The notes below the pieces were generated by a model. It was not told the DNA's origin and did not search any database. It saw only the letters and a list, made by a program, of their open reading frames with translations. Positions 35,039 to 37,605 of a stretch of 41,766 nucleotides of DNA are shown in pieces. The translations under genes and the position numbers were made by a program. Source of the DNA: Acidobacteriaceae bacterium (GTDB taxonomy: Bacteria > Acidobacteriota > Terriglobia > Terriglobales > Acidobacteriaceae); NCBI GenBank assembly GCA_025360645.1, contig JANYBT010000051.1, forward strand, positions 1-41,766. The letters are read 5' to 3'. The number at the start of each line of letters is the position of its first letter. The first letter of the stretch is position 1.

Positions 35039-35373
35039 CGATGTGCAGCAACGCGCGCAAACCCCAACGCTTCATTAAACCGCGAGCCGCGAGTTACGAG
35101 CAACTTCCCCTCTCCACCGTCCCAGACCGGCAAAAGATCGCAGACGACGCTAGGAACTTCGGAATATCGAGACTGGTGTGCGACATGCTCTGCCAGTGTG
35201 CCACAGTCGGGTGCCTCAATCACGGCAGACGCCGCGCTTGTGCCTCTACGCAGTGTCCCTTGTGGCGATGCTTTCAAATCTTGTCCCCGGTGGAAAGCAA
35301 CGAGCAATGGGTTGGAGCCGACCACACCCACGCGCTTGCGTTACACTAGGCGGGTTCCTCCAGGAGGAGTTCC
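35039..35373. other. Intergenic region between trpC and the peroxiredoxin gene, no gene seen
   Basis: Open frames on both strands here have no family features and overlap each other. A -10-like TTACACT lies close to the end of the region, about 34 nt before the peroxiredoxin ATG. Nothing else is supported. Confidence 0.5.
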
Positions 35374-35970
35374 ATGCGCCACAATTCTCTGGCTCTGCTC
35401 GCGCCCGCTCTGCTGCTGGTGGCGCTGGCTGGACCCGTCACTCCGGCCGAAGCCAAAACGCCTGCCAAGAAAGCCAGTGCAGCGTCGCCCGTCAAGGTGG
35501 GCGACCTCGCTCCCGCTTTCACTCTGCTGGCCTTCGATGGCAAGGACGTGAAGAAAATCTCGCTGGCTGATTACCGCGGCAAGAAAAACGTCGCGCTGGC
35601 GTTTTACCCGTTCGCCTTCACCGGCGGTTGAACCCAGGAAATGAAAGCTTTCCAGCAGAATTTGACCAGGCTGGAAGGCGCAGACACCCAGGTCCTGGGT
35701 GTGAGCATGGATAGCCCCTTCGCCAATTTCGCGTTCGCTCAACAGAACGGCATCAAGTTCCCTTTGCTGGGGGATTCCGGGGGCACTGTGACTCGCGCCT
35801 ATGGTCTGGCCTCCACCGAAGATGTGGAAGGCGTGCCCATGCAGGTCGCCCGCCGCGCCACGTTCCTGATCGACAAATCTGGCAAAGTTCTGGAAGAGCA
35901 AGTGGACGACGAAGCCCTCGATCCCACCAAGACCGTGCTCGCCTGCGAGCGCCCGAAGATGAAACACTAG
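35374..35970 (+). CDS. Exported peroxiredoxin, predicted selenoprotein (in-frame TGA at the peroxidatic position)
   Basis: 198 aa if TGA (35629-35631, codon 86) is read as selenocysteine. Start ATG 35374 has an ideal AGGAGG 6 nt upstream. Residues 1-27 are a Sec signal peptide. The thioredoxin-fold peroxiredoxin follows: [32 protein letters not shown]-[TGA][10 protein letters not shown], [36 protein letters not shown] and [13 protein letters not shown]. The TGA sits exactly where FTGGCTQE would have the peroxidatic Cys, and the frame continues with the complete C-terminal half. The only Cys in the translated frame is Cys191 near the end, a candidate resolving residue. A SECIS-like hairpin follows the TGA. 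Expected role: reduction of peroxides in the periplasm. Alternatives: nonsense mutation or sequencing error. Confidence 0.85.
35647..35679 (+). promoter_or_regulatory. Candidate bacterial SECIS hairpin
   Basis: GCTTTCCAGC (35647-35656) pairs with GCTGGAAGGC (35670-35679): 10 bp with one G-U pair, enclosing a 13-nt loop (AGAATTTGACCAG). The stem starts 15 nt after the TGA and the loop 25 nt after it. The loop has G as its second base. These features agree with the bacterial SECIS consensus as I know it (short distance to the UGA, stable upper stem, G among the first two loop bases), where SelB binds to insert selenocysteine. Confidence 0.7.
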
Positions 35971-37518: not shown

Positions 37519-37605
37519 TGGTGCCGAAGAAGGGACTCGAACCCCCACACCCTTGCGGGTACATGGACCTGAACCATGCGCGTCTGCCAATTCCGCCACT
37601 CCGGC
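37519..37605 (-). tRNA. tRNA-Leu (anticodon CAG)
   Basis: Minus strand: acceptor GCCGGAG/CTTCGGC (one G-U), a D-arm with GGCGGAATTGGCAGACGC, anticodon stem CATGG/CCATG with loop TTCAGGT (anticodon CAG at 37569-37571), a long class II variable arm TACCCGCAAGGGTG, T-loop TTCGAGT, discriminator A and an encoded CCA (37519-37521). It reads CTG leucine codons. Its 3' end lies 4 bp after the stop of the convergent propeller-like gene. Confidence 0.97.

Follow-up and report, generated by a model that had tools for sequence, protein, structure and literature searches.

The stretch of DNA analysed here (the window: 41,766 nucleotides from a soil Acidobacteriaceae bacterium, contig JANYBT010000051.1) carries on its forward strand, at 35374-35970, an AhpC/TSA-type peroxiredoxin gene, recognised from its frame and from Pfam and phmmer matches, with 198 residues and a predicted selenocysteine (Sec) at residue 86. 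A single in-frame TGA interrupts this frame, at codon 86 (35629-35631, context AFTGG-TGA-TQEM), which is the peroxidatic position, and alignment and conservation lead us to read it as selenocysteine. On the same strand, a strong ribosome-binding site, AGGAGGAG (35362-35369), ends four bases 5' of the ATG, and residues 1-27 (35374-35454) form a signal-peptide-like N-terminus ending in AEA at a presumed cleavage site. Besides the codon 86 site, the sole further cysteine of the read-through protein is Cys191 (35944-35946), an invariant second redox residue and the probable resolving cysteine. The first-pass annotation, made from the sequence alone, had described a continuous peroxiredoxin frame with one TGA at its peroxidatic codon, a ribosome-binding site, a signal peptide and no cysteine other than Cys191, all of which agreed with the present analysis; it had also expected naive gene calling to split the gene, and the list of open reading frames indeed gives pieces of 85 and 109 amino acids. 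The gene seems to stand alone, with trpC upstream on the opposite strand, and a consensus scan around it returned no promoter-like and no terminator-like site. Pfam neighbours between 27608 and 41694 comprise an outer membrane barrel with a carboxypeptidase-regulatory domain, a phosphorylase superfamily protein, adenosine deaminase, indole-3-glycerol phosphate synthase, an OsmC-like protein, a putative glucoamylase and a GH39 protein, and a tRNA-Leu (CAG) lies at 37519-37605 of the window.

The read-through product matched Pfam AhpC-TSA (PF00578) at residues 42-172 (E 7e-34, 117 bits versus a cut-off of 26), and phmmer aligned the TGA codon with the Cys of PxxxTxxC in the solved peroxiredoxin 2ywn. 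An AlphaFold model of the window protein, built from 30 relatives, reached a mean pLDDT of 88.8, and its fold matches were BCP, PrxQ and 2-Cys peroxiredoxins. The NCBIfam equivalog cut-offs were missed for PrxU (74 versus 270 bits), for the thiol peroxidase PRK09437 (78 versus 140 bits) and for AhpC (56 versus 272 bits). Among 72 distinct full-length members, a set which is TGA-bearing by construction and omits L112 (TGT) and the truncated L037 and L107, Cys191, Thr83 and Arg161 were each kept in 72/72. The PxxxTxxU residues of the window protein are P79, T83 and U86, and residue 79, the Pro of PxxxTxxC (codon at 35608-35610), is Ile in 41, Val in 30 and Pro in only one of these 72 proteins, that of the window gene. 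In its accessible text, PMC13188914 calls PxxxTxxU highly conserved in peroxiredoxins; with Val or Ile in 71/72, the window family thus departs from this motif. A hydrophobic N-terminal 10-mer was found in 69/71 and an early Lys or Arg in 66/71 distinct family proteins (window protein included; L037, L107 and L014 omitted), and the N-terminus suggests that the window peroxiredoxin would be exported.

Conservation of the TGA was clear in both collections of loci. TGA occupied the catalytic codon in all 30 best matches from 100 genomes, the window included, and in 57 of the 58 loci with named records that form the second collection. The single TGT locus, L112, encodes a distant PrxQ-like protein in an Opitutales record, while the other 57 records belong to Acidobacteriota of various ranks (Acidobacteriaceae, Acidobacteriales, Terriglobia and others). 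Pooled, the best-matching loci fetched had TGA at this site in 87/88 cases, and a sequencing error is therefore set aside; once identical stretches were merged, 74 distinct loci remained, 73 of them with TGA. The TGA, with the homology on both its flanks already remarked in the first-pass annotation, recurred across these loci and is hence not a matter of chance. Cysteine codons, TGT or TGC, were found in more distant homologues (L118, L123 and L125, with 43-47% identity), and a tblastn search against plasmids returned 216 records, every one below 60% identity.

The machinery for Sec insertion was indeed present in the window's genome, an assembly of 3.8 Mb in 158 contigs and 99.9% complete, in which profile searches found selA (543 bits), selB (367 bits) and selD (361 bits), together with a tRNA-Sec with anticodon UCA (71 bits versus a cut-off of 47). 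These sel genes and the TGA kept in 87/88 loci, where a cysteine codon or an absence of the machinery could have been found instead, support the selenocysteine peroxiredoxin proposed at first pass. The selD of this genome (L043) carries an in-frame TGA of its own. Eleven redoxin matches were found in the same genome, four of which, besides the window gene, have TGA at a catalytic-looking place, namely a PrxQ-like protein with TPG-U and a compact GUU-loop hairpin (L046) and three W-U-P-x-C redoxins (L047, L053 and L054); the cell therefore appears to use several predicted selenoproteins. Among the matches listed, a peroxiredoxin with an internal TGA, counted wherever in the match that TGA fell, was present in 63 of the 100 genomes, and selA was over the cut-off in 63/63 of these; again among the matches listed, none of the 23 selA-less genomes had a TGA-bearing peroxiredoxin. 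Inspection by eye placed selB over the cut-off in 59/63, the remaining genomes being G023, G028, G056 and G087, with completeness of 75, 96, 85 and 88%, respectively. Two genomes, G098 (L122) and G084 (L131), each have two adjoining TGA-bearing peroxiredoxin matches on one contig, and one of the two in G098 also contains a TAG.

Downstream of the UGA, folding and comparison delineated two RNA hairpins on the forward strand. Hairpin 1 (35647-35679) has arms at 35647-35656 and 35670-35679 around a 13-nt loop. Hairpin 2 (35684-35702; in DNA, ACACCCAG-GTC-CTGGGTGT) reads ACACCCAG-GUC-CUGGGUGU in RNA, lies 60 nt past the UGA and is capped by a G-U apical loop of SECIS type. With the T of TGA numbered 0, its bases 55-62 pair with 66-73. 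In the window it forms a perfect 19-base inverted repeat of -12.6 kcal/mol on its own, and the whole 81 nt fold at -33 kcal/mol (z -3.8 versus dinucleotide shuffles). Codon conservation at codons 92-102 did not differ significantly from that of the remaining gene in a rank test (p 0.29); the codon-conservation listing placed the constraint further downstream, with strong synonymous conservation at codons 100-111 of the family, and hairpin 2 was therefore located there. Gly109, for instance, is encoded by GGT in 71/72 genes, although GGC is their commonest Gly codon. The family pattern, ACACCCAG-GUN-CUGGGUGU, is near-invariant, and all eight pairs form in 67/72 genes. The SECIS of Escherichia coli fdhF is a single hairpin directly after the UGA, in which a short stem carries a GGUC-type loop at its tip. 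The G-U apical loop of hairpin 2 resembles the fdhF loop, but the fdhF hairpin is single and adjoins the UGA.

According to the accessible parts of PMC13188914, a bacterial SECIS (bSECIS) has a loop of 3-9 nt with G in the first two places, a spacing of 16-37 nt and an energy of at most -7.5 kcal/mol, and a subset of genes fails these rules, pointing to distinct classes; that some bacterial selenoprotein genes misfit the SECIS model, so that distinct classes may exist, is likewise stated in PMC13188914 and PMC12013277. We applied these rules in our own implementation, with at least 4 pairs, to a comparison set of 179 distinct redoxin genes from 208 loci (one locus shorter than 400 bases and low scorers being left out), comprising family A, which is the window family, from the same taxonomic family (f1), family B, a paralogous Sec family mostly with WTP[TV]-U, other Sec redoxins, and Cys, Ser or other relatives, and to 30 further Sec genes of the phylum that are described below. 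A conforming hairpin at the normal spacing of 16-37 nt was found in 0/71 family A genes, 14/35 family B genes, 16/30 phylum genes, 22/25 other Sec redoxins and 8/47 Cys/other genes, the last being chance occurrences by our reading. At the place of hairpin 2, the corresponding counts were 70/71, 31/35, 29/30, 1/25 and 7/47. Family A is thus without a standard element, and hairpin 2 agrees with the bSECIS consensus model in everything but distance: 59-60 nt, rather than 16-37, separate it from the UGA, and a conserved hairpin stands between.

Hairpin 2 followed Sec, though Sec relatives with a compact SECIS lacked it. All seven core pairs were formed in 70/72 family A genes (a set which here includes L036 and L037 and excludes L038) and 27/35 family B genes, versus 0/25 other Sec redoxins and 1/47 Cys/Ser/other genes; similarly, CCCAGGT stood at the hairpin 2 place in 68 family A and 33 family B genes, and in none of the other Sec or Cys/other genes. 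The other 25 Sec redoxins include orthologues from further families of the class, and often have a compact hairpin, e.g., TATCAG-NCT-GATA, at +17 to +37. Searched blind to gene identity, the motif TGA-N55-CCCAGGTNNTGG gave 72 matches in 45 of the 100 genomes, 60 of them in these peroxiredoxins as judged by eye, versus 6 matches for the reversed control. Phylum-wide, the same search gave 65 matches in 55/396 genomes versus 22 for the reversed control, by our own count. We fetched 32 of these 65, picked by eye as peroxiredoxin-like, and 30/32 were Sec peroxiredoxins, with 14 family codes; 6 more were already known, and the remainder resembled background. The hairpin searched without the TGA (AYRCCCAGGTNNTGGGYRT) gave 55 matches in 39/100 genomes, 53 of which lay by place in Sec-peroxiredoxin genes, versus 1 match for the reversed control, and it had no match in the 23 selA-less genomes of the 100. 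G037:C83:6414 and G061:C14:4680, the only matches outside known Sec-peroxiredoxin places, may be due to chance. The element was seen in peroxiredoxins only and in Acidobacteriota only, Acidobacteriota being the one phylum searched; searches for known RNA families, Rfam included, gave no match, and neither did one on four loci. Two close family B relatives with Cys, L161 and L169 (67 and 61% identity to L146), have broken hairpin 2 stems in which 3 and 4 of the 7 pairs form; such decay would be expected once Sec had changed to Cys. In eleven other family B relatives (L184, L185, L187-L189, L191-L194, L198 and L201), Ser replaces the peroxidatic Cys/Sec (W-x-P-V-S and similar), and these may be non-catalytic or perform other chemistry.

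Maintenance of hairpin 2 was evaluated at the RNA level over 136 Sec genes (71 from family A, L036 being excluded for a one-codon deletion, 35 from family B and 30 from the phylum); the phylum genes had been found by the motif itself, and only pairs 55-73, 56-72, 57-71 and 58-70 are free of pairing selection there. Pair 57-71 was A-U in 92 genes, G-C in 42, G-U in 1 and broken in 1, while pair 56-72 was C-G in 81, U-A in 44, U-G in 7 and broken in 4. Through pair 57-71, the silent position of the Gly109 codon is coupled to the choice of Thr or Ala at residue 105, and Thr105 with GGT or Ala105 with GGC was indeed found in 125 of the 127 scorable Sec genes (Thr-GGT 92, Thr-GGC 1, Ala-GGT 1, Ala-GGC 33; 9 of the 136 excluded). 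This coupling was absent in the Cys/other genes (0, 2, 3 and 15 in the same order; 20 of 47 scorable, 27 excluded) and in the compact-SECIS set (0, 12, 0 and 1; 12 excluded). Double changes filled 90 cells, whereas shuffles gave 31.7 and sliding the partner gave 0 to 12; two other measures were less striking, namely pairs with double changes (4 versus 2.2 in shuffles, 7/500 as high) and further pair types (9 versus 8.2, 90/500 as high). A C-A mismatch at pair 58-70 occurs in eight family B genes with Asp instead of Gly at residue 109; in L182, a ninth Asp109 gene of family B, the opposite base is changed as well, and the two bases pair.

Compared with synonymous recodings, nt 54-75 had a mean z of -1.79 in family A, -2.35 in family B and -2.03 in the phylum set, versus +0.48 in other Sec and +0.11 in Cys/other genes; the following 36 nt gave nothing consistent (+0.86, -0.47, +0.23, -0.19 and -0.06 in the same order). 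Much of the stem is dictated by the protein sequence, which makes single-sequence recoding tests weak (p<0.05 in 1/107). Pair 57-71 has 7 changes of both its bases on a protein tree from which the hairpin region had been left out. Tree-aware covariation gave 4 independent pairs on well supported branches, 2.9 changing the same way and 0 the opposite way (p 0.25), and the tree-aware comparison of Sec with the hairpin gave 5 supported independent pairs, 4.7 the same and 0 opposite (p 0.06). The sequences are related and only 4 supported independent pairs were available, so that tree-aware significance was not reached and the test is underpowered. Taken as sequence comparison, these data show that, within this sample, Sec-coding genes maintain hairpin 2 as RNA, whereas their Cys or compact-SECIS Sec relatives do not.

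Hairpin 1 lies about 16-50 nt past the UGA, the initial folding having placed it at 20-48 nt. Its core pairs are kept within family A and its register differs between families A and B, the family B hairpin spanning about 37 nt (positions 14-50). Against synonymous recodings, nt 3-54 had a mean fold z between -1.4 and -2.3 across the Sec sets, versus -0.1 in Cys/other genes. RNAalifold on nt 1-57, a stretch which stops before hairpin 2 completes, returned a weak structure (-0.36 kcal/mol). Two candidate pairings were rejected as not conserved by eye: a loop-loop pairing of GACC (loop 1) with GGUC (loop 2), present in the window, and one between ACCCAGG, just 3' of the UGA, and the hairpin 2 3' arm, which the window and a few relatives could form.

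From a mechanistic point of view, we propose that the UGA is recoded by a two-hairpin signal, composed of the long-loop hairpin 1 (about 16-50 nt) and hairpin 2 (55-73). SelB would bind hairpin 2 through its GU apical loop, and hairpin 1 would fold out the intervening bases, thereby bringing hairpin 2 within reach of SelB. The effective distance in family A would be 60 nt minus 29-33, i.e., 27-31 nt, inside the 16-37 nt range, and in family B about 22 of the 59 nt would be left after the hairpin 1 of about 37 nt. In the resulting enzyme, Sec86 would attack peroxides and become a selenenic acid, which the invariant Cys191, given its conservation and position, would resolve. That the window gene encodes a Sec protein is, in our view, nearly certain; granted this, it is highly probable that hairpin 2 exists as an RNA element connected with Sec insertion, and the joint claim, a selenoprotein whose Sec insertion involves hairpin 2, is, overall, quite likely. 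Whether hairpin 2 is itself the SelB-binding module is finely balanced, and we hold with the same even-handedness the proposal that Acidobacteriota use a distinct second class of SECIS, where SelB binds a GU-loop hairpin about 60 nt past the UGA with a structured spacer between. Hairpins at the normal place in 14/35 family B and 16/30 other phylum genes could mean that hairpin 2 is accessory.

This last point leads to the chief rival explanation, a loose but ordinary SECIS. Hairpin 1 would then be sufficient to bind SelB and direct Sec insertion, and hairpin 2 would act as an accessory for higher efficiency, for example through stabilisation of hairpin 1 or stacking on it; this explanation, too, assigns hairpin 2 to Sec insertion. 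It draws on the position of hairpin 1 next to the UGA, its folding in the Sec sets (z -1.4 to -2.3, versus -0.1 in Cys/other genes), the core pairs kept in family A and the model-conforming hairpin at that place in 14/35 family B genes. A 13-nt loop, the 0/71 window-family genes that satisfy the model at that place, and the stronger conservation of hairpin 2 nevertheless speak against it, and we regard it as a possible, though tentative, alternative.

An unrelated role of hairpin 2, in mRNA stability, in translational pausing for export or as a DNA operator, would suit the perfect 19-base inverted repeat of the window, and most of the variation in hairpin 2 would indeed suit any RNA stem. However, hairpin 2 tracks Sec and is not shared by the Cys/other relatives or by those Sec relatives that have a compact SECIS, and neither a terminator-like site nor an Rfam match was found. 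Export pausing fits poorly with the sharing of hairpin 2 by family B, one member of which, L146, was read and starts without a signal peptide, and a DNA site would not favour the G-U pairs that are tolerated here; such a role is therefore improbable. Finally, the split of the gene by naive calling is what a real stop or a mutation would produce, leaving a pseudogene or a short protein, but the TGA and both its flanks are conserved in 87/88 fetched loci beside a full Sec machinery, and this reading is in practice refuted. The two-hairpin signal thus remains our preferred reading.

Sec at the peroxidatic position, which the first-pass annotation had taken as known for several bacterial peroxiredoxin-like families, is documented in the accessible parts of two surveys: PMC1794560 lists 12 Sec peroxiredoxins, with 3 families and 4 selenoproteins for Acidobacteria at that time, and PMC5029168 lists 91 in 78 organisms. 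In PMC12013277, three known selenoproteins are given for one Acidobacteriota genome, and bSECISearch is said to fail on atypical SECIS elements. The window protein is a new member of these already known Sec peroxiredoxins, and shares with them (PF00578, TxxU; e.g., that of Eubacterium acidaminophilum, listed in PMC13188914) the AhpC/TSA domain, the peroxidatic Sec, the TxxU and the Sec machinery; the window family differs by its predicted signal peptide, its V/I in place of Pro and a C-terminal second redox Cys at +105. AhpE/BCP-type peroxiredoxins (2ywn, 3hjp and Mycobacterium tuberculosis MT2298/Rv2238c) are among the closest solved sequences and folds, and 2ywn has Cys at the catalytic place where the window protein has a Sec codon. 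To our knowledge, peroxiredoxins of this AhpE/BCP type have neither a signal peptide nor this C-terminal Cys. As for the RNA, we found no second hairpin in a bacterial SECIS in the open literature that we searched, including the accessible parts of PMC1794560, PMC13188914, PMC5029168, PMC12013277 and PMC1088965, and the element is therefore filed as a new variant.

These results provide a concrete candidate class of SECIS, with a defined sequence, structure and distribution. If it is true, gene finders built on the bSECIS model would miss such genes, and the rule on the distance between the UGA and the apical loop would concern the folded and not the linear distance. They also add a family of Sec peroxiredoxins, common across Terriglobia, that carry a predicted signal peptide and mostly lack the conserved Pro.
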